IMG/VR virus record: IMGVR_UViG_3300028925_012764
Coordinates: 1 to 23,680 of that record
Strand: one strand, 5' to 3'
DNA length: 23,680 bases
From: a virus
In this document: positions 2,898 to 19,400 of the stretch, in pieces
Layout of the letters: the number at the start of each line of letters is the position of its first letter
How positions within the stretch are numbered: position 1 is the first letter of the stretch
The notes under the pieces: model-generated
Databases searched by the model: none
Told to the model about the DNA's origin: nothing
Seen by the model: only the letters and a program-made list of their open reading frames with translations
Position numbers and translations under genes: made by a program

Positions 2898-2925
2898 TTT
2901 CAGGCAGTCAAGTCCCATAACGATA

Positions 2926-2944
2926 ACGATAAAGAGGAATTACC
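2926..2944 (+). repeat. Repeated translation leader, second full copy
   Basis: ACGATAAAGAGGAATTACC here is identical to 446-464, both ending directly at an ATG. A tandem CGATAACGATAA precedes it. A 19-base identity at two starts and a 14-base partial at 2488-2501 suggests duplicated or converged high-efficiency initiation leaders. Confidence 0.85.
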
Positions 2945-3358: not shown

Positions 3359-3367
3359 GAGCTTCAA

Positions 3368-3559: not shown

Positions 3560-3569
3560 GAATTAAAGA

Positions 3570-3851: not shown

Positions 3852-4186
3852 ACCAAATTAAAGACATATTTATCCGGGCTGAACGTCTACGAATGACGGC
3901 CCTATGCCTGGATATTGAAATAGATCACATTAAACACATGATTGATATGTACAGGAAAGCCGATTTGATGGACAGCTGCAACAGCTGGACTAATGGGTTC
4001 TGGCCTTTCGTGGAGCTGATGAAGATTAAAGGCTGGTCTAAAAAGGAAGACCTTTACAATATAGCCATGGTCCAGTTGGAAGAAATAGCCGATGCCTGTG
4101 AAACCAAAAATCAACGCCTTAACATACTATTACAGGAGGCTGAATCAAATGAATACTCAAGTGAGACTTACCCAACAGAACATTGA
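3836..4186 (+). CDS. Hypothetical helical protein (116 aa)
   Basis: The start is chosen at 3836 because AGAGG lies about 8 bases upstream; an ATG at 3848 overlaps the stop of the previous gene (ATGA) and is an alternative. The product is about 116 residues, predicted almost wholly helical with coiled-coil-like heptads (LRMTALCLDIEIDHIKHMID, then VQLEEIADACETKNQRLNIL). There are no catalytic motifs. The last 38 bases overlap the start of the SNF2 helicase gene, so the two are translated in a coupled way and may function together. Family not recognised. Confidence 0.75.
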   Translation: MEPTMNQIKDIFIRAERLRMTALCLDIEIDHIKHMIDMYRKADLMDSCNSWTNGFWPFVELMKIKGWSKKEDLYNIAMVQLEEIADACETKNQRLNILLQEAESNEYSSETYPTEH

Positions 4187-5822
4187 AGTCCAATGTGAGC
4201 GGTTTGACCACCGGGCGAAGGAAGCCCCCATTCGAAAGTGGGAGCCCCAGGCCAGGGTATGGCAGCTGCCTTTGACCGGGGCTACAGCAAAATACGTATT
4301 AAAAAGTTACGCCACAAGGGAAATTTGCCCCACTGCAGCGTCCAAATTGAGGGAGATATTAGACCAAACCAAAGTCATTGTACCTTTCCCCGTCTGGTAT
4401 AAATTCAAGAACAAACCCATGGACCACCAAATCGTGGCTCTTGAAAAGATGTGGGGTGAGAGGAACTTTGCCCTTTTCATGGAAATGGGAACCGGGAAAA
4501 CATTCGCGATAGTGAATTGGGGTGCTGCCATGTTCATGAATAAAGATATTGAAGCCATGTTGGTGGTTTGCCCCACCTCGGTCAAGCCTGTGTGGATAAA
4601 TGAAATGGAGGCCCATTGCCCCATCGAGCACTCAGTCCATGTGTTAGAGTCAGGTGGCTCCAGTAAATGTGAAAAGTGGATGAACGAAGCCCCAGGCCTA
4701 AAAGTTATGGTAGTAGGGGTAGAAGCTTTATCTGCTGGCCGAGCTTATAGCAGCGCAATTGACTTTGTTGTGGCCCATAAAACCGCAATGATCATAGACG
4801 AATCAAGCCGAATCAAAACACATTCAGCCACCCGGACCAAAAGGTGCATCAAACTAGGGGAAGCTTGCCAAGCCAAGGCTATTCTTACCGGGACGCCCAT
4901 AACCCAAGGTATGCAGGACTTATATGCCCAATTCGCTTTCCTAAATAAAGACATCATTGGTCAAAAATCTTATTACGGATTCCAAAACAGATATTGTACT
5001 ATGGGTGGATTTGAGCAGCGCAAGATTATAGGATATAAGAACATAAATGAAGTCATGGACCTAGTAGCACCCCATACCTATATTGTAAAGAAGGAAGACG
5101 TATTGGACCTGCCGCCTAAAGTTTATGAGACCATAACCGTTAAACCCAGCAAGGAACAGGCCAGAATTCTGAGAGACGTGGGAGATAAATTCGTCATGGG
5201 CTCGCACTTGGACGGCCTGGACCTAGAAGTAGAAACCATACTTGAGCGAATGATCAGATACCAGCAGATTGTGGGTGGCATGTTCCCATATGACGAGGAA
5301 GGTGGGACACACGGCATCACCCCCATTCCAGGGCCAAATCCCAAACTAGATGCTATGGTAGATTTGATTAAGGACTTGGATTTGAAATCAAAAGTGATAA
5401 TATGGGCCCGGTTTGTCCCGGAACAAAAAATGATAGCAGAATACTTAAATTCGGTCTTTGGGCCGTGTGTTGCTCATTACTCTGCTGGTTGCAGTACAAA
5501 CGAACGAAAAGACATGATTACTGAGTTCCAAGACTTGGAGTCACCAACACGATTTTTCCTATCCAACCCCACTATGGGTGGCATAGGTCTCACCTTGACA
5601 GCAGCTTCTTATGTGGTATACTTCAGTAACAGCTTTTCACTAGAAGACCGCTTGCAGTCAGAGGACCGAGCCCACCGGAAAGGCCAAACCAAGTCTGTCA
5701 CTTACATTGATGTTATGATGGACCACCAGATAGACCGGGACATCGTCACAGCCATTCGCAATAAAAAGTCTGTGGCTGATTATGTAGAAAGTTCAATCAT
5801 CGAGGCCCAGAACGGGTCTTGA
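4149..5822 (+). CDS. SNF2-family DEAD/DEAH helicase
   Basis: The start at 4149 follows AGGAGG by 9 bases. The 557-residue product is a superfamily 2 helicase/translocase of SNF2 type. It has a Q motif (MDHQ, about 91-94), Walker A MEMGTGKT (111-118), a DEAH-box variant DESS (217-220), motif III LTGTP (246-250) and, in the second RecA lobe, motif VI QSEDRAHRKGQ near residue 510. Residues 1-85 form a short N-terminal domain resembling those of SMARCAL1/HARP-like annealing helicases. Phage SNF2 proteins are thought to remodel replication or recombination intermediates; in many phages they travel with a VRR-NUC nuclease, and one is found here at 13336. The second residue of the DEAH box is intact and the third and fourth are both Ser, as in some SNF2 enzymes. 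The stop overlaps promoter P3. Confidence 0.93.
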   Translation: MNTQVRLTQQNIEVQCERFDHRAKEAPIRKWEPQARVWQLPLTGATAKYVLKSYATREICPTAASKLREILDQTKVIVPFPVWYKFKNKPMDHQIVALEKMWGERNFALFMEMGTGKTFAIVNWGAAMFMNKDIEAMLVVCPTSVKPVWINEMEAHCPIEHSVHVLESGGSSKCEKWMNEAPGLKVMVVGVEALSAGRAYSSAIDFVVAHKTAMIIDESSRIKTHSATRTKRCIKLGEACQAKAILTGTPITQGMQDLYAQFAFLNKDIIGQKSYYGFQNRYCTMGGFEQRKIIGYKNINEVMDLVAPHTYIVKKEDVLDLPPKVYETITVKPSKEQARILRDVGDKFVMGSHLDGLDLEVETILERMIRYQQIVGGMFPYDEEGGTHGITPIPGPNPKLDAMVDLIKDLDLKSKVIIWARFVPEQKMIAEYLNSVFGPCVAHYSAGCSTNERKDMITEFQDLESPTRFFLSNPTMGGIGLTLTAASYVVYFSNSFSLEDRLQSEDRAHRKGQTKSVTYIDVMMDHQIDRDIVTAIRNKKSVADYVESSIIEAQNGS

Positions 5823-5847
5823 CATATATATGCCTATGTGATATAAT
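5819..5847 (+). promoter_or_regulatory. Consensus sigma70 promoter P3
   Basis: Perfect TTGACA (5819-5824) and TATAAT (5842-5847) are separated by 17 bp with extended -10 TGA. The context (CTATGTGATATAATAGT) matches P1 almost base for base. It starts the replication and Z-nucleotide operon at 5876-14048, making it a likely middle promoter. The -35 overlaps the stop of the SNF2 gene. Confidence 0.93.
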
Positions 5848-5875
5848 AGTGCACTAGAGAGAAAGAGGAAATAAA

Positions 5876-6226
5876 ATGAACGACATTAAAAATCAAAGCG
5901 GCCCCCAAGTCTTTGTAACGCAGTTTGACCCGAAGTGGGATTTTTCATCTTTGGTAAAGCATGGTGAGGTGGTTTTCCTAACCCAGACCGAATATAGGCC
6001 TGAGCCATCTATGCCTGGGTATAATCAGGCTATCATGGCGGAAATCTTGCGCAACATGAAAGAGTACCGCCCCGGAATTGACTATATAGCCCTCACCGGG
6101 TCCGCTATGCCAAACGTTATCTCAGGAATGGCTCTTGGTAGCATTCTGCGCTACAACAGTAACGTATCCAACAACATTTTAAAATGGAGTCGAAGAAATC
6201 ACGACTACGAATTGTTTGCACTTTAA
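5876..6226 (+). CDS. Conserved-type phage protein of unknown function (116 aa)
   Basis: This is the first gene behind consensus promoter P3, with an AGAGGAA ribosome site 7 bases before the ATG. The 116-residue product reads as a small alpha/beta protein: VFVTQFDPKWDFSSLVKHG, then VVFLTQTEYRP, a helix, and DYIALTGSAMPNVISG. The segment near residue 78 (DYIALTGSAMPNVISGMALG) looks like a strand followed by a glycine-rich turn. It might be a small phage protein in the style of proteins that report a count or list, but no family is clear. Its place at the head of the replication operon suggests a replication or regulatory role. Confidence 0.83.
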   Translation: MNDIKNQSGPQVFVTQFDPKWDFSSLVKHGEVVFLTQTEYRPEPSMPGYNQAIMAEILRNMKEYRPGIDYIALTGSAMPNVISGMALGSILRYNSNVSNNILKWSRRNHDYELFAL

Positions 6227-6238
6227 GAGGAAGAGATC

Positions 6239-6637
6239 ATGAGTATTAAAACGCTGGCCGAAAAAATGGTCATAGTAAAAACCAAGCTTGAAGCATCAAA
6301 GTCGGCAACGGCTGAGCTACAGAAAGAATTCGATGACATTCGGAAGGTCCAATTACCAGAAGCTATGGAAGCTGCTGGCATGGAGTCTACCCGGTTGCCG
6401 AATATTGGTACGGTTTCAATGAGAACCGATGCATACGCAAGTATCAAAGGTGGTCAGCAAGAAGGAGCATACCAATGGATGCGAGAAAACGGCTTTGAAG
6501 ATCTTATCAAAGAGTTTGTTCACACGTCCACCCTTAAAGCTTTCCTAAAGGAGCAATTTCGCGAAGGCGAGCAACTCCCGGAAGAAATCTTTACATTTTC
6601 ACCCTATAGCTATGTCGCTATAACTAAATCAAAATAG
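6239..6637 (+). CDS. Conserved phage replication-region protein (132 aa)
   Basis: AAGAGGAAGAG precedes the ATG. Residues 1-45 form a predicted coiled coil (LAEKMVIVKTKLEASKSATA and on). Residues 46-132 form a compact domain with MEAAGMESTRLPNIGTVSMR, the segment GAYQWMRENGFEDLI and HTSTLKAFLKE. Proteins of this layout (a coiled coil, then a small domain with an LPN-G-V-x-V strand and a W-L-x-x-NGF-x-DLI helix) recur in phage replication gene blocks next to SSB-like and polymerase genes. I infer an accessory replication or recombination role. No enzyme motif is visible. Confidence 0.82.
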   Translation: MSIKTLAEKMVIVKTKLEASKSATAELQKEFDDIRKVQLPEAMEAAGMESTRLPNIGTVSMRTDAYASIKGGQQEGAYQWMRENGFEDLIKEFVHTSTLKAFLKEQFREGEQLPEEIFTFSPYSYVAITKSK

Positions 6638-6653
6638 AACCGAGGATTAAGAA

Positions 6654-7364
6654 ATGAGCACTAAACAACTTAAAACCAATAGTGGTGAAGTAGCACGTCC
6701 AGCATTCATGGACACTGGCAGCGGACGTGGCTCCGAAGGAGTCGGCATCGATGATATCACGATTCCACGCGTAGATGTACTCCAGGCTCTAAGCCCCCAG
6801 CGCAAAAAAACGAACGCAGAGTACATAGAAGGAGCCGAGGAGGGTATGCTCTTTAATACCGTCACCAAGCAGCTCTATGGCCCCAGCTTTCTTTTTGTAC
6901 CAGTGTACTTCCGAAAAGAGTATGTTATCTGGAAGGACCGCAAAGAGGGAGGTGGATTTGCTGGCGCATTTGCCTCTGAGCAAGACGCCCAGAATGCAAT
7001 GACGGACCAAGATCTTAACCCGGAAATCCACCAAATCACCGACACCGGGCAACATTTCGGTTTGCTAGTAGATGATCATGAGTCTGAAAACCCTAAAATT
7101 GAAGAAGCCGTAATTTCAATGTCTCGGTCTAAGATGAAGGTTAGTCGCCAATTGAACACAATGATTCGCATGGCAGGGGGTGACCGTTTCGAAAGAGCTT
7201 ACACTATTGCTTCTGCCGAGTCTACCAACAACAATGGCGATGAATTTTGGAACATTTCGGTTAAGCAAATGGGCTACGTTTCTGAGTCTGTATTTAAGGC
7301 TGCTGAGGTAGTGTATACCGCTATCACGGCTGGGACCACAGACGTTAGCCGCACAGCTGACTAA
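6654..7364 (+). CDS. Conserved phage protein, possible ssDNA-binding or recombination accessory
   Basis: CGAGGA stands about 10 bases before the ATG. The 236-residue product has a flexible Gly/Ser-rich N-terminus (to about residue 30), then DDITIPRVDVLQALSPQRKK, the segment GAEEGMLFNTVTKQLYG and a beta-rich core with FVPVYFRKEYVIWKDRKEGG. A long helical/beta C-terminal part contains SMSRSKMKVSRQLNTMIRMA and FWNISVKQMGYVSESVFKAA. This pattern (IPR-x-x-LQALSP, then W in a strand, then a late K-x-x-R-x-LN) is one I associate with a conserved phage replication-block family of unknown biochemistry, sometimes suggested to bind single-stranded DNA. The lack of an acidic tip contrasts with the small protein at 7403. 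Confidence 0.8.
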   Translation: MSTKQLKTNSGEVARPAFMDTGSGRGSEGVGIDDITIPRVDVLQALSPQRKKTNAEYIEGAEEGMLFNTVTKQLYGPSFLFVPVYFRKEYVIWKDRKEGGGFAGAFASEQDAQNAMTDQDLNPEIHQITDTGQHFGLLVDDHESENPKIEEAVISMSRSKMKVSRQLNTMIRMAGGDRFERAYTIASAESTNNNGDEFWNISVKQMGYVSESVFKAAEVVYTAITAGTTDVSRTAD

Positions 7365-7370
7365 AACTGA

Positions 7371-7388
7371 TGGCCCCTCCGGGGGCCA
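7371..7388 (+). promoter_or_regulatory. Intercistronic hairpin with UCCG tetraloop
   Basis: TGGCCCC (7371-7377) and GGGGCCA (7382-7388) form a 7-bp stem closed by C(UCCG)G, a member of the stable UNCG tetraloop class. Only ATTT follows, so termination is unlikely to be complete. The GGAG ribosome site of the gene at 7403 comes 4 bases later. It resembles the hairpin at 1222-1237. Confidence 0.8.
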
Positions 7389-7402
7389 ATTTGGAGACTA
7401 TC

Positions 7403-7645
7403 ATGGCGTTTGAACAAAGAGAACTTAGTGGTTCACTATTCCGCAACACTTACAAAAAAGCCTCAAACCAACCCGACCACCGGGGGTCCTGTAAAATTGG
7501 CGGTGAAGAATATGACATTTCAGCCTGGATTAAAGACGGTAAATCCGGCAAATTTTTCAGTCTAGCATTCCAAAAGAAAGCTGGCGAGCCAACCAAAGCT
7601 TTATCAGATGACGGAATTGACACAGACGAAGACATACCGTTTTAA
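7403..7645 (+). CDS. Small OB-like protein with SSB-type acidic C-terminal tip
   Basis: The start is set at 7403 (MAFEQRELSG) from GGAG 7 bases upstream. The 80-residue protein has a single beta-rich domain (residues 8-58: GSLFRNTYKKASNQPDHRGS, then GGEEYDISAWIKDGKSGKFF, then SLAFQ). This resembles a widespread group of small phage proteins loosely like DUF736. Residues 69-80 are acidic and end in DTDEDIPF. Bacterial SSB proteins end in the same kind of tip (DDDIPF), which docks SSB-interacting repair and replication proteins. I infer a minimal ssDNA-binding protein, or a decoy for the host SSB interaction network, acting with the polymerase encoded 41 bases downstream. A basic face (KK, HR, K at 44, 47, 50) would suit DNA binding. 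Confidence 0.85.
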   Translation: MAFEQRELSGSLFRNTYKKASNQPDHRGSCKIGGEEYDISAWIKDGKSGKFFSLAFQKKAGEPTKALSDDGIDTDEDIPF

Positions 7646-7686
7646 ACCACCAGCAAAGAACTCCACTTTAACAAAGAGTATTCACC

Positions 7687-9525
7687 ATGTTCAATTTACC
7701 AGATCTCAGCCAGTACCCGGTTATCGCACTTGATACCGAGACCACTGGACTTTTACAAGGGGTGGACAAAGCCTTTGGCGTCTCCATTACCCTCCCTAAC
7801 CTGCAGGATTTCTATTGGGACCTGCGAGTCCAACCCCAAATCATAGAATATCTAAATGAAAAACTCGGCAATTATCGTGGCATCATCGTGGGCCATAACA
7901 TCGGCTTTGATTACAGGATGTCACGTTCTGCCGGACTTATGCTACCTATCTCCAGGCTCGATGACACTGTCATTAGGGCTGCTCTCATTGACGAGCATTT
8001 GGTATCTTACCGCTTGGATGATCTTGCGATAAAGTATCTCAATGAAAGGAAGGAAATAGAAATTTACGAGGAGTTGGCTTTTTTATTTGGGGGCCGGGCC
8101 ACTCGAAAGGTCCAAATGCCAAACATCAGCCGGGCTCCTGTAAGTGTTGTCGCCCCATATGCAAAGAAAGACACAAACCTAACAATGCGCCTTTGGCAGT
8201 GGCAAGAGAAAGAGATCAAAACCCAAAATCTAGGTGAAATTCATGAATTTGAACGGTCTCTAATACCCACCTTTATCAAGACTATGGAAAGGGGCATTAG
8301 GATTGATTCCGGGTACGCAGAAGAAGCGGCTGATAAACTCACACCTCTTATACTGGAAGACCAGAAAGCTCTAAATAAAATTGCAGGACATGAGATCAAT
8401 GCCAATTCATCTGTCCAAATCCGAAAGCTATTTGAACCCAAGATGACGACACTTCGTGGAACCAAGCAATGGGCAGCAAACGATGGTACATTTTTGTTGG
8501 AGACCAATAGTGGCAATCCATCTATTGGTTCTGATGCCCTACGCCAAATGACACACCCAGCAGCAGCGAGGATTCTTTCAATTAGGTCCTTAATCAAAAC
8601 TAGAGACACCTTCATCAGAGGACACGTGTTGGGCCATAGTGTTGGCGATAGGGTCTATCCCACCATAAACCAAAGTAAAGGCGAAACCGGGGGCACTGGC
8701 ACAGGGCGGCTGTCGATTCAAAATCCGGCAATGCAGCAAATACCATCCCGCAACAAAACAGTAGCAGCTATTGTTAAGCCTTGTTTCTTACCAGACGAAG
8801 GAATGGTATGGGTTGATGGGGATATGAGTTCGTTTGAGGTACGGGTATTTGCCCATTTAATAAACAACCCAGTCATCAACGATGAATATGAACGTGAACC
8901 GGGCACAGACTTGCATCAGTTTGTGGGTGATCTGGCCAACCTGCCCCGGAACGCTACCTATAATGGCCAGGCCAATGCTAAGCAATTGAACTTATCGATG
9001 ATTTTTAATTCAGGGAACGGGGCGATAGCAGACGAAATGGGGATGGACTGGGAGTGGCAATCTTTTAGGTCTTCAGACGGAAAGACCATAACCTATAAAA
9101 AAGCCGGGGCGGAAGCACTAGAAGTTATCCAGCGATACCATAGTCGAGTGCCCGGTGTGAAAGAGCTGGCCCAAAAAATGCAAAGGCGAGCTGAAAATTG
9201 GGGCTACGTTATGAATTATAAAGGCCGCAAGCTTAGATTCCCTCATGGTTGGAAATCATACAAAGCCTCTGGTCTTTTAATACAATCAACGGCAGCTGAC
9301 CTAAACAAAGAAAACTGGAAATTGGCCGAGGAAGCTATGGGTGATGACGGCCATCTTATTTTAAACACTCATGATTCTTACTCAATGTGTATGCCGGAAG
9401 ATTGGCAGCCAGTTTGGGCTAGAGTCAAAGAAGCAATAGAACGCCCACGTCTCAGAGTTCCACTAGTATTGGACTTGAATGGGGCAGGTAAAAATTGGTG
9501 GGAAGCCTTACAGGGAGAGAAATAG
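7687..9525 (+). CDS. dpoZ: Family A DNA polymerase with 3'-5' exonuclease (DpoZ candidate)
   Basis: The 612-residue enzyme has an N-terminal DEDDy proofreading domain: DTETTG (Asp16, Glu18), GHNIGFDYR (Asp75) and YAKKD (Tyr158, Asp162). The polymerase domain follows: GTGTGRLSIQNPAMQQIP (337-353), motif A GDMSSFEVR (Asp379, Glu384), O-helix around 428-440 and motif C THDS (His562, Asp563). There is no 5' nuclease domain. The O-helix is unusual: relative to E. coli Pol I, R754, F762, Y766 and G767 become Gln428, Leu436, Phe440 and Asn441, while K758 is kept as Lys432; motif C has Ser where Glu is usual. An extra segment (about 453-475) follows the O-helix. The gene sits in one operon with purZ, datZ and mazZ, so it is the likely copying enzyme for Z-DNA. 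The symbol is given from context; no search was run. Confidence 0.93.
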   Translation: MFNLPDLSQYPVIALDTETTGLLQGVDKAFGVSITLPNLQDFYWDLRVQPQIIEYLNEKLGNYRGIIVGHNIGFDYRMSRSAGLMLPISRLDDTVIRAALIDEHLVSYRLDDLAIKYLNERKEIEIYEELAFLFGGRATRKVQMPNISRAPVSVVAPYAKKDTNLTMRLWQWQEKEIKTQNLGEIHEFERSLIPTFIKTMERGIRIDSGYAEEAADKLTPLILEDQKALNKIAGHEINANSSVQIRKLFEPKMTTLRGTKQWAANDGTFLLETNSGNPSIGSDALRQMTHPAAARILSIRSLIKTRDTFIRGHVLGHSVGDRVYPTINQSKGETGGTGTGRLSIQNPAMQQIPSRNKTVAAIVKPCFLPDEGMVWVDGDMSSFEVRVFAHLINNPVINDEYEREPGTDLHQFVGDLANLPRNATYNGQANAKQLNLSMIFNSGNGAIADEMGMDWEWQSFRSSDGKTITYKKAGAEALEVIQRYHSRVPGVKELAQKMQRRAENWGYVMNYKGRKLRFPHGWKSYKASGLLIQSTAADLNKENWKLAEEAMGDDGHLILNTHDSYSMCMPEDWQPVWARVKEAIERPRLRVPLVLDLNGAGKNWWEALQGEK

Positions 9526-11822
9526 TGGAAGCAACTGAACACACAGTCCTGGACCTGAGAAGTCTAGAAGATATTTCCAATTTGGAGTCCTATGAACAGA
9601 AACTCTACATGGCAGCTTTGGAATACATCAAAGCAGGTTTTTATGTAGTCCCCTTAACCAAAAATGAAAAGAAGCTGCCAGAAGCCAATAAAGGGGTAAA
9701 CTACTCTACTGCCTCCAATAGTCACCGGGTGATTGAGAAGTGGTTCCACCCCACAAAGGGCAAATTTGCTGGATATAACATTGGAATCGCCACCGGGCGT
9801 GAGAATGGTGTGTTTGTAGTAGATGTGGACCGCCACGGTGAAGAGGACGGAGTTCAAACCTTGAAGGACCTTGAAGCCAAGCACAGCGAGCTTCCAATAG
9901 GCCCCTGCCAAGCCACCCCAAATGGGGGGTTTCATTATCTATTTAGGTGGCAGGAAAACGCTACTAATAGTACTAACAAAATCGGCCCTGCCATCGACAC
10001 TAGAGGTGGCAGCAAGACAGCTTGCAAGGGACATATTGTAGCCTGGCCTTCAATGATAAACGGAATTGGCTACAAATGGGTGACATCAGGACCACTACCC
10101 AGTATTCCCCATTGGGTGGTGGAAAAGATGGGAATCTCTTGGTCAAAACCAAGGGGCGAAATCACCGGGAACGGCCGGGGCAATGAGAATGTCAACGTTG
10201 ATGATTTCGAAAAGAAAGTTCCCCTCGACCAGATCACCCGGATGATGGAATCTATTGCTATCGATGATGCTAGTTATGATGAGTGGATACGGGTTGGTAT
10301 GGCCATCAAATCTCAATATCCGGACGAGGACGGTTTTGAGTTGTGGGATGACTGGTCATCACAGGGCTACAGATATGAAAAAAACGAATGTCGCATACGC
10401 TGGGATGGTTTCAGCGATTTTGGTACTGTCAGAATGGGCTCCCTGTTTTACATGTCAAATGAGAGTGGGTGGAAGCCCGAACCCGATGACGTCCACATGG
10501 GTAGAATTCACGGGGAAATTGAGCGAGTCAACGCTGAATATGGTTTTACTGTAGTTGGTGGCAAAGCTAAAATCATCCGGGAAAGGAAGAAGACTCATGC
10601 GGCCGAAGCTCATATGGCCCGTTATGACTTAATGGACAAGTCTTCGTTTGAGGCATACCTAGAGAACGATAGGGTGGTAATAGACGAGGAGACCGGGAAA
10701 AAGATATCAGTGGCTAAGATATGGCTGGCGAGTGAAGCCAGGCGAACTTACCCAAACGGAATCGGCCTGTTTCCAGAGGGAGCACCCGGTGGATATTATA
10801 ACACTTGGGAAGGATTCTCAGCAAAGCCTGAACCGGGGGATTGCGATGTTTTCATTGACCACATCAAGGACATAATATGTAATGGGAATGAAGATGAAAG
10901 TAAGTGGGTATTAGACTGGATAGCCGATATGTTCCAAAACCCACAGGACCCCAAAGGCACTGCAATTGTAATGAGGGGAGGGGAAGGAACAGGAAAGGGT
11001 ACACTTGCCAACACAATAGGTGAGCTACTTGGGAGCCACTATATCCACCTCATTGATGACGCCCACCTAACCAGCAATTTCAATGCATTTATGATGGATG
11101 CCGTCTTGGTATTTGCAGACGAGATCACTTGGGGTGGTAATAAAAAGACATCAGGCAAACTCAAAGGCTTAGTGACCGAGAGGTTTCTTGTTTGTGAGCG
11201 CAAAGGCGTAGATGCCCAGAGCTTCCGAAATATGATACATATGTTTATAGCATCTAATTCTAAGTGGGTTATCCCCGCTGGAACAGATTCCAGGCGTTGG
11301 TATGTAACCGATGTTAGTCCCAATAAAAAGGGCAACATACCTTATTTTAAGAATATAAAAACCTTCTTTGACCAAGGTGGACACGGGAAAGTTCTTAATT
11401 TCTTCCTAAATAGGAAAATAACCAGCGATTTAAGAATAGCCCCACATACGGAAGCATTGCAAGACCAGAGAGATATGTCGATGTCTTCAGAGACAACAGC
11501 AAATTGGATTTCCATGCTTTGCATAAACGAGTCAATGAAAGCCCCCTGTCTTGACGACACAGAAGGATGGCCAACTAAAGTCCAAAAGAAGGATTTATAT
11601 GAAGATTACAGTGAATGGTGTTCAAAGCGAAATAGACATTCTGACCACATGATGATTTTTTTCAAAGAACTGAAGAAAATGGGTTTCAGGCCCACAAAGA
11701 AAAGACTACCGGGTGGAGGAAGAGTTCCTGCGGTGGAAGTGCCTCTATTAGAAAATCTGATAGAGTCAATGAAGCAATTGCATAACATGAACCTAAGGGA
11801 AGATAATGATGATGATGGATAA
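9525..11822 (+). CDS. PrimPol-SF3 helicase fusion (replicative primase-helicase)
   Basis: The GTG start at 9525 overlaps the polymerase stop (TAGTG) behind AGGGAGAG; a TTG further upstream is less likely. The 765-residue product contains three known parts. Residues about 26-205 form a bifunctional primase-polymerase (Prim-Pol) domain with catalytic DVD (100-102) and GGFHYLF with His137. Residues about 232-316 resemble the PriCT-2 primase C-terminal domain (YDEWIRVGMAIKSQYPDEDG, then WDDWS). Residues about 440-640 form a D5-like/SF3 helicase with Walker A GGEGTGKGT (485-493) and Walker B VLVFADE (527-533). It should prime and unwind the phage genome. The fusion is common in phages; the PurZ cyanophage S-2L uses a PrimPol-type enzyme for copying, so priming with Z nucleotides is worth considering. 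The PurZ start lies inside its last codons. Confidence 0.93.
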   Translation: MEATEHTVLDLRSLEDISNLESYEQKLYMAALEYIKAGFYVVPLTKNEKKLPEANKGVNYSTASNSHRVIEKWFHPTKGKFAGYNIGIATGRENGVFVVDVDRHGEEDGVQTLKDLEAKHSELPIGPCQATPNGGFHYLFRWQENATNSTNKIGPAIDTRGGSKTACKGHIVAWPSMINGIGYKWVTSGPLPSIPHWVVEKMGISWSKPRGEITGNGRGNENVNVDDFEKKVPLDQITRMMESIAIDDASYDEWIRVGMAIKSQYPDEDGFELWDDWSSQGYRYEKNECRIRWDGFSDFGTVRMGSLFYMSNESGWKPEPDDVHMGRIHGEIERVNAEYGFTVVGGKAKIIRERKKTHAAEAHMARYDLMDKSSFEAYLENDRVVIDEETGKKISVAKIWLASEARRTYPNGIGLFPEGAPGGYYNTWEGFSAKPEPGDCDVFIDHIKDIICNGNEDESKWVLDWIADMFQNPQDPKGTAIVMRGGEGTGKGTLANTIGELLGSHYIHLIDDAHLTSNFNAFMMDAVLVFADEITWGGNKKTSGKLKGLVTERFLVCERKGVDAQSFRNMIHMFIASNSKWVIPAGTDSRRWYVTDVSPNKKGNIPYFKNIKTFFDQGGHGKVLNFFLNRKITSDLRIAPHTEALQDQRDMSMSSETTANWISMLCINESMKAPCLDDTEGWPTKVQKKDLYEDYSEWCSKRNRHSDHMMIFFKELKKMGFRPTKKRLPGGGRVPAVEVPLLENLIESMKQLHNMNLREDNDDDG

Positions 11823-12840
11823 AAAAGTAGATGTAATAGTGGACCTTCAATTTGGCTCCACCGGGAAAGGCTTAATAGCCGGATATTTGGCCAAAAGGGG
11901 AGGCTATGATGTGGTGATAAACGCCAATATGCCAAACGCTGGCCATACATTCATAGACGACACCGGGCGCACTTGGATTCATAAAGTCCTGCCAAACGGT
12001 TTTGTGGCTGACTCTGTTAAGACTATAGGCCTGGGTCCAGGCTCAGTATTCAGCTTGGACCGCCTTACCAAAGAGCTAACCGAATCTAAAGACATAATGA
12101 AGGGCAAACGTCTGATAATACACGAAGCATCTGTCGTACTATCTGAAAAACACGCAGAGACCGAGCGAGCTATGCTTAGTGGGATTGCTTCTACAATGCA
12201 AGGAAGCGCAGCTGCGATGGTCCAAAAGATAATGCGCCAAAAAGAGGACAGCCCACTGGCCATATCCGCTCTAGCTAAAACCGGATTTGCTAAGTATGTA
12301 GTTACCCACGCTGAATGGATTAACATCATGTATAAGGCCCATAGGATACTCCTAGAGGGTGCTCAAGGATATAGTCTAGGTGTCAATTCTGGATTCTGGC
12401 CATACTGCACCAGCCGTGATTGCACCCCCACCCGGTTTTTGTCAGATTGTGCTATTCCTTTCAGCTGGGCCGATAAAGTGATTGGGACAGCTAGGGTCCA
12501 CCCCATAAGAGTTGGGAACACACCGGATGGTTTTAGTGGCGGACACTATGAGGACCAAGAGGAGACATCGTGGCTGGAGCTAGGCGAAGTGCCGGAGACT
12601 ACCACTGTAACCGGAAGAGAGAGAAGGGTGTTTACATTCAGCCGGGTCCAAATGCGAGAAGCTATCATGGCCTGCCAGCCCACTGATATATTCCTGAATT
12701 TCTGTAATTACGACCCCGATTTAGCTGAGGAAATAGTAGTCCAGACAAACTCGGACCTAGACACCTTTGGACCTTCCGGGTCACAAGTTACCTACACCGG
12801 GTGGGGTGCTGCAGAGGGAGATATAACCTGTGAGAATTAA
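11806..12840 (+). CDS. purZ: PurZ, 2-aminodeoxyadenylosuccinate synthetase
   Basis: PurZ joins L-aspartate to dGMP to give 2-aminodeoxyadenylosuccinate, the first committed step to dZTP. The 344-residue protein is a short PurA paralogue (PurA is about 430). It shows LQFGSTGKG (14-22), where PurA has GDEGKG: the catalytic Asp13 is replaced by Ser18, the substitution reported for PurZ. NAGHT (44-48) keeps the catalytic His47. EGAQGYSLGVNSGFWPY (184-200) and the aspartate-binding loop VTGRERR (268-274) are also present. Four consecutive ATGs (11806-11815) follow AAGGGA; the first two have the best spacing. The gene overlaps the primase gene by 17 bases and the HD gene by 11, so it is coupled to both. 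A cellular PurA is ruled out by length, the Ser and the setting. Confidence 0.96.
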   Translation: MMMMDKKVDVIVDLQFGSTGKGLIAGYLAKRGGYDVVINANMPNAGHTFIDDTGRTWIHKVLPNGFVADSVKTIGLGPGSVFSLDRLTKELTESKDIMKGKRLIIHEASVVLSEKHAETERAMLSGIASTMQGSAAAMVQKIMRQKEDSPLAISALAKTGFAKYVVTHAEWINIMYKAHRILLEGAQGYSLGVNSGFWPYCTSRDCTPTRFLSDCAIPFSWADKVIGTARVHPIRVGNTPDGFSGGHYEDQEETSWLELGEVPETTTVTGRERRVFTFSRVQMREAIMACQPTDIFLNFCNYDPDLAEEIVVQTNSDLDTFGPSGSQVTYTGWGAAEGDITCEN

Positions 12841-13339
12841 CGATATGCTTAGGGCCCAACACGTCAAGCGGTTTCATATAGTCCATACTATCAAGAACCA
12901 GAGCATAGCTGAACACTCGTTCAACGTGGCCATGATAGCAAGAAGAATCGCCATTGAAATGGGTTATGATGAAGATGATGTTAAGACCGTAATGTTGGCT
13001 GGCTTGGTCCACGATTTAGACGAAGTAATCACCGGGGACATTCCTACCCCCACTAAAATCAGGGCCAAGGCACAAGGAGTGGACCTGAACAATAACGGCA
13101 TAAATGTTCCATATCAATGTTCGGGTCTGGAGTGGGTTACAAGGATAGTTAAAGTCTCGGATTATATTGAAGCAATGTCATTTATGGAAGAAAATGCAGT
13201 TGGTATGCATGCTCTTACCGTTGAAGCTGATATAGGTGAAAAGATGGAAGCTTATGTCGAAGCCACTTTTAGCATCGATGAATTGGGCCAAATACGGGAC
13301 GTAGTAGAAGAAATTAAACAGGCAGACTTTGTATTTTGA
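12830..13339 (+). CDS. datZ: DatZ-like HD-domain dATP triphosphohydrolase
   Basis: The GTG start at 12830 is chosen because GAGGGAG lies 9 bases upstream; ATG at 12845 is the alternative. The 169-residue protein is an HD-domain phosphohydrolase of YfbR type. The metal ligands are His29 (AEHS), His61-Asp62 (LVHDLDEV) and Asp111 (KVSDYIEA). EVITGDIPTPTK (65-76) is the YfbR/DatZ signature. DatZ enzymes in PurZ phages remove the triphosphate from dATP, clearing adenine from the pool so that Z is used instead. Overlap with purZ (11 bases) and with the next gene (4 bases) shows one operon. A general 5'-nucleotidase is the alternative, but the PurZ neighbourhood makes DatZ much more likely. Confidence 0.92.
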   Translation: MRINDMLRAQHVKRFHIVHTIKNQSIAEHSFNVAMIARRIAIEMGYDEDDVKTVMLAGLVHDLDEVITGDIPTPTKIRAKAQGVDLNNNGINVPYQCSGLEWVTRIVKVSDYIEAMSFMEENAVGMHALTVEADIGEKMEAYVEATFSIDELGQIRDVVEEIKQADFVF

Positions 13340-13737
13340 ATGAGTCTCAATTTCGAAAATGGGCAGTAACCGCTATTAGAAAGGTAGGCGGCCATGCTTC
13401 GTCTGTCGAATCCCACGCCACGAGCCCAGGCATACCAGACGTAGATTTTTGCATAGATGGTATATCGGGTCACATTGAACTTAAAGTCTGCAGCAGTAGG
13501 GGCTTAAGACAATCACAAATACTGTGGTTCAAGCAGAGGATTAAAGCCGGAGGGAATCCCTGGATTCTGGTTTATAGTATAGAAAAGGTTTACCTCATAG
13601 CAGGTAAACATTACCAACATGTAATATATATGAATAAAGAGGAAAAAACACAATGGGAAACAACAGCAGTGAAAATTTGGCCGTCGTTGCCGACACCCCA
13701 AGACCTCGCCATTGGCTTGAAGACAAACCAGCCTTAA
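13336..13737 (+). CDS. VRR-NUC-like PD-(D/E)xK nuclease
   Basis: The only in-frame start near the beginning is TTG at 13336, overlapping the datZ stop (TTGA). The conserved helix-1 Glu3 right after it supports that start. The 133-residue product matches the VRR-NUC fold: Glu3, PGIPDVDF (31-38, catalytic Asp35), ELK (48-50, catalytic Glu48 and Lys50), and a Q-x-x-W-F helix (LRQSQILWFKQRIKAGGNPW) with Gln. VRR-NUC enzymes cut branched or flapped DNA structures (for example Holliday junctions) and in phages often accompany SNF2 helicases. One is found here at 4149. The polymerase has no 5' nuclease, so this protein might supply flap or junction cutting. Its last 85 bases overlap mazZ in another frame. 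Confidence 0.87.
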   Translation: MNESQFRKWAVTAIRKVGGHASSVESHATSPGIPDVDFCIDGISGHIELKVCSSRGLRQSQILWFKQRIKAGGNPWILVYSIEKVYLIAGKHYQHVIYMNKEEKTQWETTAVKIWPSLPTPQDLAIGLKTNQP

Positions 13738-14048
13738 ACTATATGTACGAATTTCCAAACGGAATGGAAGGAATCTGCCGCACTTTGATGATGGGAGAGG
13801 GCAAATACACTAGGGGGGAGTGGAAGGGTGATAGTAACACCAGATACGCCAGGCTTTCAATTATAGATTCAATGAATCGCCATTTAATGGCAAGTGAAAA
13901 CGGGGAGAGGGCAGACCCGGAATCGGGCCTGGACCATTTATATCATGTAGCTGTAAACGCCTTAATGCTGGCCGAAAAATATGGGGTCCAACCTCAGACC
14001 CTCAGCCAAGCATACCCATGGCCCACAGACAGTTCCGAATCAGATTAA
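13653..14048 (+). CDS. mazZ: MazZ-like dATP/dGTP diphosphohydrolase (DUF5664 type)
   Basis: AAAGAGGAAAAAA precedes the ATG. The 131-residue protein carries the DUF5664 pattern (now named dATP/dGTP diphosphohydrolase, N-terminal): KPALNYMYEFPNGMEGICR (25-43), GEGKYTRGEW (48-57), RLSIIDSMNRHLMA (67-80) and DPESGLDHLYHVAVNALML (88-106). Conserved acids and His (Glu49, His77, Asp88, Asp94, His95) can bind metal. MazZ in known Z-phages converts dGTP to dGMP, the PurZ substrate, and can also degrade dATP. It is the last gene of the rightward operon and overlaps the nuclease gene by 85 bases, an unusually long overlap. The C-terminal tail (PWPTDSSESD) is probably disordered. Confidence 0.87.
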   Translation: MGNNSSENLAVVADTPRPRHWLEDKPALNYMYEFPNGMEGICRTLMMGEGKYTRGEWKGDSNTRYARLSIIDSMNRHLMASENGERADPESGLDHLYHVAVNALMLAEKYGVQPQTLSQAYPWPTDSSESD

Positions 14049-14049
14049 A

Positions 14050-14490
14050 CTATTTTAACTTAATTCCACCCAGCTTGCCAGACACCAATTTGGTGAGCAA
14101 ACCCCTCAACCCGAATTTAACCACATATACGCCAATTATCAAGTATTGATACCATTCGGGCATAGCAGCAAAAGATTCAAATGCTGCTGTAACCTCAGCT
14201 TGATACCCTAAAAATGACGCTCCCACCGGGACCAACAACAAAGCTATCATGATATCATCTACATAACTTTTATCCATTTGCTGCATGGCTATGTAGTCTA
14301 GATTGTAGTCCTGGGTTTGTCCATTATCTGCTAGTTTGTGTGCTGCTTTAGCTCCTGCTACCTTAACGTCTGCATCGGCTTCAATAGCTATAATAGCTGC
14401 CGCTGACTTAGCTTTGGCTACTTGGTTCTTACCTTCAAGGTATGTGCTACCTAAACTGGCTATTGGATTTAAGAAACTTAAAAAGCTCAT
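14050..14490 (-). CDS. Putative holin (two membrane segments)
   Basis: AAGGATTAATT precedes the ATG. The 146-residue product has an amphipathic, Ala-rich N-terminal half (residues 18-52) and two likely membrane segments at about 80-97 (DIMIALLLVPVGASFLGY) and 113-130 (WYQYLIIGVYVVKFGLRG). It ends with a basic tail (LTKLVSGKLGGIKLK). It directly follows the M15 endolysin gene in reading order, the usual place for a holin. The layout, with a long soluble part before the membrane segments, is like the three-segment phage holins of the GTA type, but I cannot assign it to a family. It is the last gene of the late operon and its stop is one base from that of mazZ on the other strand. Confidence 0.8.
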   Translation of the reverse strand: MSFLSFLNPIASLGSTYLEGKNQVAKAKSAAAIIAIEADADVKVAGAKAAHKLADNGQTQDYNLDYIAMQQMDKSYVDDIMIALLLVPVGASFLGYQAEVTAAFESFAAMPEWYQYLIIGVYVVKFGLRGLLTKLVSGKLGGIKLK

Positions 14491-14492
14491 AA

Positions 14493-14879
14493 TTAATCCT
14501 TGATTTCAAAATGTGGATAATCTTGCCATGATTTCCATAAACCACCCCACTTAAGCTCATAGCCTAGTTGGGCCGAGGCTTGTAACATGGCTGCGGCACA
14601 AACACTAAGATGAAGTTTGTCCCAACTAGCCTTCCCGTCAACATACGCATACAGATCAACGGCCTTCCCACTTTGGTGATATGACTTATTATTAACCCCG
14701 TCTGTTTTTGACACGCCATCAGCGAACAATTTGGCTTGCTGGTCGGTAGTGCGAAGCCCACCAGTAGAGGGAATACCAAAATCAATAGGGCTAATCGTAA
14801 TAGCGAGGTCTGCAATATCAATGAGTCTTCCATCCACGCCTACCAAATTATTTATACTATTTTTGCCTAGTTTAAACAT
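14493..14879 (-). CDS. M15-family peptidase endolysin
   Basis: AGGAG stands 9 bases before the ATG. The 128-residue product has the zinc peptidase pattern of the M15C / VanY-like family: RTTDQQAKLFADGVS (43-57), SYHQSGKAVDLY with zinc ligands His68 and Asp75 (66-77), and WGGLWKSWQDYPHFE with His123 (111-125). It should cut peptide cross-links of peptidoglycan (L-Ala-D-Glu or D-Ala bonds) to lyse the cell at the end of infection. There is no signal peptide, so it depends on a holin, and one is encoded next door. It is the second peptidoglycan hydrolase in the window; SleB at 2945 is the other and cleaves a different bond type. Confidence 0.9.
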   Translation of the reverse strand: MFKLGKNSINNLVGVDGRLIDIADLAITISPIDFGIPSTGGLRTTDQQAKLFADGVSKTDGVNNKSYHQSGKAVDLYAYVDGKASWDKLHLSVCAAAMLQASAQLGYELKWGGLWKSWQDYPHFEIKD

Positions 14880-14881
14880 GC

Positions 14882-15154
14882 CTAACTCCTAAACATTATA
14901 ACCGCACCGCCAACTAAGGCAGCTATTAATAATCTTATAAACCATTCATTAGCACCGCTAGCTTTACCAACTAATGCCAGTTTTATGGCGTGTTGATCTA
15001 TGTTGTCACTATGCTTATTAAGTCGTCTGTCTTGTGTCTCGTTATGAAACAACAGGCCATCAATCTTTGTATCTATTTCCACCAGCTTCACCATCGCCTC
15101 GGCCAGTTTATCTAACTTGGCCTCAAGTCTATCAAACCTTATGTCAGCTTCCAT
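14882..15154 (-). CDS. XhlA-like tail-anchored membrane protein
   Basis: The 90-residue product has an N-terminal coiled coil (RFDRLEAKLDKLAEAMVKLV, about 6-66) and one C-terminal membrane segment at about 68-87 (NEWFIRLLIAALVGGAVIMF). This layout is that of XhlA/hemolysin-like or pinholin-type phage lysis proteins. It may act with the holin or anchor the endolysin. The TAG stop of the upstream gene is only 5 bases before its ATG. It is part of the four-gene membrane/lysis cluster between the fibres and the end of the operon. Confidence 0.78.
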   Translation of the reverse strand: MEADIRFDRLEAKLDKLAEAMVKLVEIDTKIDGLLFHNETQDRRLNKHSDNIDQHAIKLALVGKASGANEWFIRLLIAALVGGAVIMFRS

Positions 15155-15159
15155 TTTAT

Positions 15160-15591
15160 CTATCTCAAGTAGAGTGCAACACCAAATGCTGCTGCCATAA
15201 TTACGAGTACAATGCCCATTGCTTTAAGGGCAACTGTAACATTTTCTTCAATCGCTTGCTGACGCTTATATTTTTGACGCGCTTTTTCTTTTTCAGCTTC
15301 GCGTAGATCCCTCGTGTATTGTTGTTTAAACGCTAAAAAATCACTGTACCCCTGCAGTCTTTGTTTATTAAGCATATATTTCAGTTCTTCTTCCTGAATC
15401 CTTAACTGCTCTTTAGCCTGGAATGCTTCAAGTACATTACCCGTACCAGCCTCAACTTGCTTGGCTATGGCCTTTTCAGCACCAAAATACTCACCTACGG
15501 CTTTACCAGCCGATAGCAATTCCCCACCATTACTGAGTGTTTGCTTTATCACTTGAAAAGCTGCATTAGCAATGGCTAGTTCTGCTAGCAT
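15160..15591 (-). CDS. Coiled-coil protein with C-terminal membrane segment
   Basis: The start at 15591 (second Met of MGMLAEL) is preferred because GGAGG lies 8 bases upstream; the ATG at 15597 would be only 2 bases from that site. The 143-residue product begins with a hydrophobic-helical segment (MLAELAIANAAFQVIKQTLS) and has a long coiled coil in the middle (AKEQLRIQEEELKYMLNKQR). It ends with a membrane segment (GIVLVIMAAAFGVALYLR). Proteins of this layout recur in lysis or virion blocks of marine phages without an assigned role. The position suits lysis, spanin-like bridging or membrane-associated packaging, all unproven. It lacks a lipoprotein signal. Confidence 0.78.
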   Translation of the reverse strand: MLAELAIANAAFQVIKQTLSNGGELLSAGKAVGEYFGAEKAIAKQVEAGTGNVLEAFQAKEQLRIQEEELKYMLNKQRLQGYSDFLAFKQQYTRDLREAEKEKARQKYKRQQAIEENVTVALKAMGIVLVIMAAAFGVALYLR

Positions 15592-15773
15592 ACCCATAAC
15601 CTCCGTGAATAAAGTTCCAGAGTTATTTCATAAGGTTTTCTTGACGGTTGCACGACCATGTAATCCTGTAACTGATACTCAACGCCAAGTGCCTTTACTG
15701 TATATATTCCGCTTGCGGGTGCTTGAGCAGGCGAAACATGAACAGGGTAAAGTTCAAGTGACGTTGCCCACAC
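15585..15773 (-). CDS. Small hypothetical protein (62 aa), GTG start
   Basis: The GTG start overlaps the TAG stop of the upstream gene (TAGTG), and its own stop overlaps the next start by a few bases. Both are marks of tightly coupled real genes. The 62-residue product reads as a beta-rich fragment (GIYTVKALGVEYQLQDYMVV, then YEITLELYSRRLW). It has no recognised family and no membrane segment. No strong ribosome site is visible; translation probably depends on coupling to the upstream gene. Confidence 0.62.
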   Translation of the reverse strand: MWATSLELYPVHVSPAQAPASGIYTVKALGVEYQLQDYMVVQPSRKPYEITLELYSRRLWVC

Positions 15774-16396
15774 TAAGCATCAACTAAACTTACAAATGCA
15801 GGGTCCACTTCCAGGCTTGGCCAACCATGTGTTGTATTATCGATACTACGATTAACTGTATAGGTTTGAGGGCCATAGGTTTCTGTACCATCGTCTGCTG
15901 TGTGTTTAACTTTGCGAGTCTCAACCATAGGCGTATTCTGATAAACAATGACAGCCGCCAAGTCAGACAAAGCAGCAATGGCACTTTCTTTAGTATCCAT
16001 TTCTGTATAGATTGCGGTGGCGTGAGTAGCTATAGCTGATGGTACTGCTGTGCCACCTTTAGCTGCTCTGCTCCAGTACCAATCTACACTGCCCTGCAAT
16101 GAGCCAGCTACTGATTTAACTGTGGCTAGCATATTAGTCTTGAGTGTTGCCACATCTTTATCAATGGCTGCATAAGTGCCTAATATTTCACCATCAACTT
16201 CAGTGCGAGTTAATGCGCCTTGGTTGTAATACCTTTGGTCAAGTCTAGTCTCGCTGTAAGGCTTAATGCCAATGGCAGCTAGTTCTTCTTTTGACCAGAG
16301 TACAAAGATATTGCGGGGATACTGGGTATCTCCAATCGTTAAACCTCTGGCCTTGTTTACTACAAATCCTGCTTCTGTATTTCCAACGAACCACAT
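15773..16396 (-). CDS. Tail-fibre-associated protein, DUF4376-like
   Basis: AGGAG stands 9 bases before the ATG. The 207-residue product has an N-terminal domain (to about residue 70) with the segment TIGDTQYPRNIFVLWSKEEL, AAIGIKPYSETR, and a long helical middle (LKTNMLATVKSVAGSLQGSV). It resembles DUF4376-type proteins often encoded just after phage tail fibres, which may act as fibre assembly chaperones or fibre-tip domains. The likeness is by pattern only. It sits 30 bases downstream of the LamG fibre gene in the same operon. Confidence 0.8.
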   Translation of the reverse strand: MWFVGNTEAGFVVNKARGLTIGDTQYPRNIFVLWSKEELAAIGIKPYSETRLDQRYYNQGALTRTEVDGEILGTYAAIDKDVATLKTNMLATVKSVAGSLQGSVDWYWSRAAKGGTAVPSAIATHATAIYTEMDTKESAIAALSDLAAVIVYQNTPMVETRKVKHTADDGTETYGPQTYTVNRSIDNTTHGWPSLEVDPAFVSLVDA

Positions 16397-16426
16397 AGTG
16401 TATTCTCCTAAATTGTGATTGCCATG

Positions 16427-19400
16427 TTATCGGGCGTTTGAATGTTTAAATGGCATTTCTGCTATTGCATAAAATATGTATGTAACACCAGAGGCGTTAA
16501 AATCTGCATTGGCGAATCGCCACTTGAAGCCATTAGATAAAAGGTCTAGGAATACAGGGTTTGACGCATCCTCTGCCGCACTACTGTTTGGCAATAAAAT
16601 GTAACTTGAACTGTTATACCCTGATCTTCGATTATCAAATATATTCCAGTCTGCCGCTGCAATGCTTTTGACTAAAACCATAGCTGGCCTAAATCCTAAA
16701 TTTATAAACGCACCATCAACCACGCCAGAGCCTCCAGTTCCAACAAATGAACCGACCTTCGAGTAGCCGTCAACGCTGTGGAAGCAGTAGGCTATTAGGT
16801 TACTGCTGCTTCTGTTTACATCAGCCAAACTTCCTAAATTAAATACAGTTGATGTTGGGGCCGTATCATTCCACGCTGTGTTTGTATCTCCCTTTGCATC
16901 TGAACGATCTAAAATTATAAAGTCTGTTTGAGGATCGCTGGCTAGTCCATCGTGATAAACTAACCAAACGTCTGTGACATTACGATTCTTAACAATTAGC
17001 ATCTCAGGCGCAGATGCCAGACCATGTCCCACTGTGGCGTTAGCACCCGTACCCGTATAACTAACAATACTAAAGCCAGCACTAGGGTTAGCAGACACAC
17101 TAGAAGTGATTGTGCCGTTGGTGTTAGATGAGGCTGAACCGCCAGCTTTCCAGTTCCATGCTGCATAGGTAGCATTATTATCGTTGAATCCATAACCAGC
17201 AGCATCGACCCCAAGGCTAAATCCGTCAGAACTAAATGCTGTAACTTTATCATCTTGTGCGCCATATTGATTTTCAGTAGAAACAGTATTAGGCTGGATT
17301 GCTTTACCACCTCCACGGACGCTATCAACACTTACATGATTACTGGTTGTTGATCTGGTTTTAAGCCAAATAAAATCGGGCTGAAAGCCTACTCCAGAAA
17401 TTACTTTATTTTGCCGTGTGCCCGTATAAAGCACAGTATTAAAATGCTCACTAGGTATCACATCAACCGATGGAAGGTTGCTTGTACATAACGCTAAGAA
17501 GCCAGACGGGGGCTGGTAAAAAAAGTCACCAATTCCACCTGAGTCTTGTTTGCCTTGTGGGGTTTTCGCTCCTGCAAAACTTGAGTCAGAGCCAAAGTTA
17601 ATTCTTATATCTGATCCTGTGCCAGTGTAAATACCAGCAAACGGAACGATACCACCGCCTGTTTGAGTGAGCCAATCCGAATCAAAAGTTGCTTGTGGGT
17701 TTGAACCAGTTGCAGGATTACCACTGTTAAAATAAGTACCACTAGCATTTGTAAACCATGCTTTGCCAGCATCAGCATCTATAGCAAAACCGATGACGCT
17801 TATACCTGTTTGACTAGACAATCCAGTTGCGCTAGTAGCTGTCCAAGCTGGCGTTCTAACTCCACCATTATTTGAAATAAACAAGAATTTATCTGTAGAG
17901 TTTGTTGCTCCTGAATTAGCGTAGCTCTGCGAGATTGGTGCTAGACCAATTTCAGGGTTACTCCCAGCCGTATAATAAATCTCAAAATAAAACTTACCAG
18001 ACGAAATAGCCATATTACCAGCACCACCTCTGTCGTTTGAGGTTTGCGTTAATTTAGTGTTACCTTCTGATAAAACTGCTGCGGCTGGTAAGTTTAAAGG
18101 ATTCCAAATTGCAAAGTTATTGGTCGGGCTGTCAACCATCACATCAGATTCAGTCAGGCCACCCTCGCTTGTCCAATCGTTGTTGTTGCCACTCTGATCT
18201 AACCAGTAAGCGTACTCACGGGTGTCAGCAAATGCCATGTAGATGTAAGTGCCGCCTGAAGCGTTTGTTCCACCACTAGTTGAGGTAAGCTGAAACCCGT
18301 TGGCACTAAAATTAACTGTATTGTTGCCACTTGTAGCCTCTGCATCAGCTTCGTTTGGCTGTAAAACACTATTTACAGGATTGTTAGGATTACGAGTGTT
18401 ATCGTACATCCTCCAATTTTCTACTCCATTACTACGTCTAATAATAACGAAAGCTGGCGGGAAGCCTAGCGTCACTATTGGGCCTGTAGCATTTCCGTTT
18501 CCAGAGTATGAAGAAAATTTTGAATAGCCTGTGACGCTGTGAAATGCGTACGCTATGTAAGTTGCACCATTGCTGTTAGTGTCTGAATTTGCGCCAACGC
18601 CAATAGTAGTAGCTGTATTCCCTTGAAATCCAGTTGTTTCCTGATCTGCTGCGGCTGAAGTGTTTAGGGACAGAAAAGCACTATTATTTGACCCATCACC
18701 ATACACGGCTTGAATAACTGAACCGCCCACTTTCCAAGGTGCGGCTGTCGTTCTGCTTTTGACTATAACAATTTCAGGCGTAGATCCTAAACCATGCCCT
18801 AATTTGGTATTATTTGTGGCATTACCTGTCCAACTGACTATAGATTGCCCATAGGTGGTGTTAGCCCTGACACTGGTTGTGATTGTACCATCGGTATTAG
18901 AGGCTGTCGTGCTGCCCATGTCCCAGTTCCATGCAACATAGGCTCTGCCGTTCGTGTTTACGTCACCGCCGCCGCCGCCACTATCTAAACTAAACCCGTC
19001 TGTCTGCCATCCTGCAAAACCGTTATTAGTTGTTGCTTCCACAGTAGTCGCATTGGTTACTAACCTTGCAGAAGCACCTCTGACTGTATCGTAAAGTTGA
19101 TGATTACCCGCCTCACTTCTGACTTTAAACCAGCTCATATCTGGAGAAAAACCTGTCCCGCCTATATAATTTGACGCACCCGTTCCCTCATAAACCACTG
19201 TAGAAAAACCTTCAACAGAATAGTCCTGCTTGAACGGCAGATAGAAACCATTGGTTCCGTATGTGCCAGCGTACTCAATGGGATTCCACTCCCCGTATTT
19301 CCCTGTCTCACCAAGGCTATCAGGCGTCAGTGCTTGTCCGTCAATGAAGTTTACTTCGCCTATGTAACAGTCTAAGGTTTGTACACCTCCGTTATACCAT

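Follow-up and report, generated by a model that had tools for sequence, protein, structure and literature searches.

Organization of the operon

The window—the whole stretch of 23,680 nt analyzed here, IMG/VR record IMGVR_UViG_3300028925_012764 of an uncultured bacterial virus—bears a single block of plus-strand genes at 7687-14048, within which neighboring ORFs overlap throughout (Table 1). Four of these ORFs, encoding DpoZ, PurZ, DatZ, and a stand-alone DUF5664 protein, had been named in the original prediction, and they lie at the coordinates and on the strand claimed there, with family scores far over chance. The overlapping ORFs also bear out its description as one coupled block; its gene list, however, omitted a primase–helicase and a nuclease. 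The primase–helicase occupies the same position as the primase in ZP6 and phiVC8. For the nuclease, the VRR-NUC label was assigned from sequence reading, and a search against Pfam gave no match. As judged by a home-made profile, this nuclease co-travels with DatZ—its gene follows directly 3′ of datZ in most PurZ loci.

Table 1. Genes and features of the operon, with the DUF6378 genes of related loci. Positions refer to the window unless another contig is named.
Feature	Position	Strand	Basis or remark
DpoZ, 2-aminoadenine-selective family A DNA polymerase, phiVC8-like clade, with 3′-5′ exonuclease	7687..9525	+	NF038380
PrimPol/PriCT-2/D5-like primase–helicase	9495..11822	+	PF09250, PF08707, PF19263; phrog_1156, 320 bits; start codon uncertain
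PurZ, N6-succino-2-amino-dAMP synthetase	11806..12840	+	NF038379
DatZ, dATP triphosphohydrolase (HD family), GTG start	12830..13339	+	phrog_7076
Closed MazZ slot	12830..12840	.	11-nt purZ/datZ overlap
VRR-NUC-type nuclease homologue, TTG start listed	13336..13737	+	phrog_2165, E 3e-16
Stand-alone DUF5664 (dGTP_diPhyd_N)	13653..14048	+	PF18909
DUF6378, contig L002	10207..10479		
DUF6378, contig L003	10449..10745		
DUF6378, contig L108	6202..6537		
DUF6378, contig L106	6242..6604		
DUF6378, contig L105	6386..7072		

Upstream of the block, genes for an SSB-like protein (7370-7645) and a helicase (4092-5822) are found, along with two for Pam3-like proteins. In a megablast search, the window matched no phage record. 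Some further features were seen outside the operon. At its left end (5-334), the window carries a degenerate tandem array with periods of 30, 60, and 120 bases, through which two overlapping ORFs read. Two separate endolysin-type genes (2945-3358, plus strand, and 14493-14879, minus strand; families phrog_938 and phrog_465) sit on opposite genome arms. A small acidic protein encoded at 3368-3559 on the plus strand belongs to the T7 gp5.9 RecBCD inhibitor family PF25708 (27.2 bits, cutoff 24.5) and is a possible anti-RecBCD protein.

PurZ, DatZ, and DpoZ belong to the families of Z phages

PurZ scores 346.2 bits against NCBIfam NF038379 (cutoff 300), whereas the models of cellular PurA reach 45-142 bits on it, well below their cutoffs. 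Its closest PDB entry is PurZ of phiVC8 (6fm1, E 2e-108), with PurA appearing at best at E 2e-20. The catalytic Asp of PurA is changed to Ser18, and the dGMP pocket—N44, A45, R144, Q187, and V236, taken from the description of S-2L PurZ (PMC8342488)—is invariant with S-2L, phiVC8, ZP6, and SH-Ab. DatZ matches phrog_7076 with 104.7 bits and, among PDB entries, DatZ of S-2L (6zpa) at E 2e-13 versus E 5e-8 for YfbR. With the metal and phosphate ligands as named in PMC8065100, it retains H29, H61, D62, E65, D70, D111, R14, K76, and K108. I17, the equivalent of the 2-amino-excluding I22 of S-2L, is retained as well, and W20 is changed to Phe15.

The polymerase scores 845.6 bits against the DpoZ_1 model NCBIfam NF038380 (cutoff 500), and its closest PDB entry is DpoZ of phiVC8 (7pbk, E 3e-216). 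The exonuclease triad D16/E18/D75 is present. The marks of the phiVC8 clade were taken from PMC8599892: L455, F459, G548, and S583 are found at L436, F440, G529, and S564 of the window protein, together with all three phiVC8-type insertions. Compared with contig L014, DpoZ and PurZ show dN/dS values of 0.03-0.05.

By PDB and family matches and by the key residues kept, PurZ and DatZ hence fall into the Z-phage families, as had been claimed, and the check that went with this claim—whether the best matches would be the cellular PurA and YfbR—gave PurZ and DatZ instead. In the same way, NF038380, 7pbk, and the clade residues identify the family A polymerase as a DpoZ and not a PolA. Since PurZ, DatZ, and DpoZ are members of proven 2-aminoadenine families with their diagnostic residues, the virion DNA very likely carries Z instead of A.

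The MazZ slot is closed

The dGMP that PurZ consumes is usually produced from dGTP by MazZ, which is encoded between purZ and datZ and regularly accompanies the PurZ-type Z system without being the feature that defines it. The MazZ-2 gene at this place comprises 85 codons in ZP6 and 86 in phiVC8. The window leaves no such space: its purZ overlaps its datZ, and the MazZ slot is therefore closed.

The rest of the genome can be appreciated from the sibling contig IMGVR_UViG_3300028925_012725 (G001; 32,122 bp). In reverse orientation, it matches window positions 1-18214 (18.2 kb) with an identity of at least 99.9%, and a second match at positions 22754-23680 (927 bp) is 100% identical. Window and G001 thus overlap at both ends and yield a closed map of 23,680 + 12,981 = ~36.66 kb. 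The extra part of G001 carries the genes for terminase, portal, head, and connector proteins and for a tape measure, so that the phage has a siphovirus-type long tail. G001 (also L010) further bears a head-morphogenesis protein at 5952-7637, whose C-terminal part gives weak ADP-ribosyltransferase matches (phrog_802, phrog_3895), as in MuF-fused enzymes.

Profile searches of the window and G001 found no MazZ-1 (DUF550), MazZ-2, MazG, PRA-PH, or dUTPase, and the same profiles found none in another five contigs with an empty slot, each 36-38 kb long. In controls, the MazZ-2 and DUF550 profiles recover the known members in ZP6, phiVC8, S-2L, and SH-Ab, while some of these escape the weaker generic models for MazG and PRA-PH. 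A MazZ gene of a known type outside the window can be rejected, as the sibling contig closes the map and these profiles find none in it.

The stand-alone DUF5664 protein

The last gene of the block encodes a protein with 65.7 bits against PF18909 (cutoff 27), in which the conserved DUF5664 residues G48, K51, Y52, H77, D88, and H95 are present. It corresponds only to the N-terminal domain of SH-Ab MazZ; no DUF550/MazG domain, with the E..E...E..D metal site of MazZ, was found in it. In hhalign comparisons, the DUF5664 profile matches MazZ-1 and MazZ-2 with a probability of <1%, whereas the MazZ-1 and MazZ-2 profiles align mutually at the metal motif. The original prediction of a complete Z gene set with a MazZ-like enzyme is thus, in its strict sense, wrong: the slot is closed, MazZ-1 and MazZ-2 are absent from the window and G001, and the proposed MazZ-like protein is PF18909 only, without DUF550 and without profile similarity to either MazZ type.

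On the structural level, the DUF5664 sequence gave nothing significant against the PDB. A fold search with its AlphaFold model (pLDDT 77.5) returned no PDB match with an E-value below 1 and thus does not demonstrate a MazG-like fold; MazZ of S-2L matches the model weakly (E 6, TM 0.32-0.40). The gene is under purifying selection, with a dN/dS of ~0.09 versus the 85%-identical homologue of L014, or 0.055 when the part shared with the nuclease gene is left out.

A biochemical precedent comes from Arthrobacter phage Wayne, whose stand-alone DUF5664 has been proven to convert dATP, dUTP, and dGTP to their monophosphates (Poubanne et al. 2026, PMC12884076). Its kcat is 0.48 per s for dATP and 0.053 per s for dGTP—a difference of ~10-fold—and Wayne is the only phage for which the activity of a stand-alone DUF5664 is known (PMC12884076). 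DUF5664 is also common in phages without a PurZ match, so that its presence alone is no sign of a Z system.

Empty slots and DUF5664 among PurZ loci

For a wider view, 80 PurZ loci were fetched from viral contigs, and all of their ORFs were scanned with profiles built here; gene content was counted in 74 non-redundant loci and the purZ–datZ spacing measured in 68. Most of the 74 loci carry DUF550, either without DUF5664 (32) or together with it (17). MazZ-2 is found in 11, DUF5664 only in 10, MazZ-2 plus DUF5664 in one, and none of these in three; MazZ-1 and MazZ-2 never share a locus (0/74). Nine of the 68 loci—the window among them—have -13 to +12 nt between the purZ stop and the datZ start, and the remaining 59 have at least 255 nt. 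All nine empty-slot loci bear a stand-alone DUF5664 that adjoins or overlaps the nuclease gene, and they are spread over several PurZ lineages. Mapped onto the PurZ tree, the state with DUF5664 only requires five changes, at least two of them on strongly supported branches. In tree-aware tests of the replacement pattern, independent pairs were too scarce for significance, and power was low; hence, the association of the empty slot with DUF5664 is a strong pattern, short of formal proof. Among isolates, MazZ-1 or MazZ-2 is kept in 8/8 (ZP6, phiVC8, SH-Ab, S-2L, BUCT555, Bm1, OH, and K300), and the slot between purZ and datZ is occupied in each isolate checked.

In two PurZ contigs, the slot is occupied by an ORF belonging to neither MazZ-1 nor MazZ-2 (L065, 11047-11367; L080, 11004-11486). 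Neither ORF has a convincing Pfam match; judged by eye, both show acidic helical motifs resembling MazG-type enzymes and might represent a possible further MazZ type.

The position downstream of the nuclease is variable, too. Directly 3′ of the nuclease gene, in the place of DUF5664 in the window, ZP6, phiVC8, K300, BUCT555, and Bm1 encode a DUF6378 protein (Table 1). DUF6378 and DUF5664 never occur together in the 74 PurZ loci: 0/28 loci with DUF5664 have DUF6378 versus 19/46 of the others (Fisher p 2e-5, with kinship ignored). DUF6378 may be another candidate nucleotide-pool enzyme.

Origin of the DUF5664 proteins

The nearest isolate relatives of the empty-slot DUF5664 proteins occur in phages without a PurZ match: GP100 (56% to L046), the Vibrio phages D69/D181/D148 (49.5% to L015), and PT11-V22. 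DUF5664 of Wayne groups with that of Arthrobacter phage GoCrazy, apart from the window's. The DUF5664 tree rests on ~98 columns, and with this number of columns, neither a clade of all empty-slot DUF5664 (p 0.18) nor one of the window group and the SH-Ab fusions (p 0.22) is rejected. A single clade of all sampled PurZ-phage DUF5664 proteins, by contrast, is rejected (p 0.0006). DUF5664 of PurZ phages has been described as one clade (PMC12884076); this fails in the wider sample because the proteins of the PurZ contigs L016, L051, L064, and L072 group with those of canonical T7-like, Schitoviridae, and similar phages. Outside these four contigs, the tree is compatible with a single origin as well as with several.

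Comparison with known Z systems

ZP6 and phiVC8 share with the window the gene order dpoZ–primase–purZ–datZ–nuclease and the DpoZ clade, and their PurZ proteins are 56.5% and 51.6% identical to that of the window, respectively (tblastn). In both, MazZ-2 separates purZ from datZ, and the nuclease is followed by DUF6378; the window lacks these two genes, and its nuclease is followed by DUF5664. Furthermore, the tail genes of the window phage are of the siphovirus type, while ZP6 is a podovirus by description (PMC8515928).

Acinetobacter phage SH-Ab 15497 has the PurZ, DatZ, and DpoZ families and the DUF5664 domain in common with the window. Its MazZ, however, is a 385-aa fusion of DUF5664 (3-98) and DUF550 (170-244) encoded between purZ and datZ, of which the window has the DUF5664 half only, as a separate downstream gene. 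Cyanophage S-2L has the same catalytic residues in PurZ and DatZ, but it bears MazZ-1—DUF550 alone—between the two genes, where the window has none. S-2L also lacks DpoZ and uses PrimPol as polymerase (PMC8065100), in contrast to the window. Wayne resembles the window in its stand-alone DUF5664 beside a PurZ-type gene (PMC12884076), yet with PurZ0, DmtZ-DutZ, and another DpoZ clade instead of PurZ, DatZ, and a DpoZ of the phiVC8 clade. The layout of the window itself is shared by eight IMG/VR contigs (L014, L015, L017, L040, L046, L050, L056, and L060): they show a gapless purZ–datZ junction, the nuclease, and DUF5664, are without MazZ, and have PurZ proteins 88% to ~46% identical.

A possible route to dGMP and its alternatives

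We consider it likely that the window stems from a Z-DNA siphovirus that is related in its operon genes to phiVC8 and ZP6 and in which DUF5664 replaces MazZ. In such a phage, DatZ would remove dATP, and PurZ would join dGMP and aspartate to the dZMP precursor. Host enzymes would complete dZTP, and DpoZ would replicate the genome, placing Z opposite T. The dGMP would most likely be supplied by the stand-alone DUF5664, encoded two genes past datZ, which perhaps trims dATP and dUTP as well. As the simplest reading, DUF5664 probably does MazZ's job in the window phage. As DatZ already removes dATP, a shift of DUF5664 toward dGTP is expected if this reading is right.

The preference of the Wayne enzyme for dATP (PMC12884076) points in another direction: with an approximately 10-fold faster turnover of dATP, DUF5664 may be a second dATP-depleting enzyme and not the dGMP supplier. 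Its wide occurrence without a PurZ match (T7-like, Zobellviridae, and Cellulophaga phages) and its presence beside DUF550 in 17/74 loci imply, in addition, that DUF5664 and MazZ are not simply exchangeable. These observations would fit a Z-DNA phage that draws dGMP from its host and whose DUF5664 is a general pool enzyme, acting mainly on dATP or dUTP, backing up DatZ, and having no particular part in the supply of PurZ. Against such a host supply stands the DUF5664 gene in 9/9 empty-slot loci from several PurZ lineages. Moreover, MazZ is kept in all isolates checked, as if the host by itself seldom provided sufficient dGMP, and we regard this explanation as unlikely.

It is more doubtful still that the MazZ role is filled by a novel kind of (d)GTP pyrophosphohydrolase, encoded elsewhere in the phage genome. 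Further MazZ types may exist, since the slot ORFs of L065 and L080 are unassigned and a number of small early-region ORFs match no family. Yet, the profiles of MazZ-1, MazZ-2, MazG, PRA-PH, and dUTPase stay empty in both contigs, and an enzyme of this kind would not explain why empty slots and DUF5664 are so strictly linked. The operon might also be present in a phage whose virions contain normal DNA, or DNA with Z in part only, through a failed step or dominant host polymerases. Given that PurZ, DatZ, and DpoZ are intact and conserved—with the low dN/dS of DpoZ and PurZ—and that DpoZ has every mark of the phiVC8 clade, this is the least probable of the explanations and would come as a surprise.

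Implications

The locus is a genuine Z-DNA operon, whose PurZ/DatZ/DpoZ system is known and whose stand-alone DUF5664 without MazZ is new. In ten complete phages, mazZ was always found between datZ and purZ (Czernecki et al. 2021, PMC8342488), and as partners of DatZ in PurZ phages, only MazZ-2 or DUF550—the latter often fused to DUF5664—have been listed (Poubanne et al. 2026, PMC12884076). Whether DUF5664 took over the MazZ step in PurZ/DatZ phages more generally, possibly repeatedly and by recruitment from canonical-DNA phages, we hold to be evenly balanced. If true, a non-homologous enzyme would have replaced the one that supplies dGMP in the Z pathway, a case undescribed in the Z-phage literature consulted.

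The operon of the window would allow for a direct test of DUF5664 function without a DUF550 partner, and DUF5664 might serve as an alternative small enzyme for laboratory Z-DNA production. For the biology of these phages, the use of a stand-alone DUF5664 in place of MazZ would mean that the substrate-supply step of the Z pathway is replaceable.
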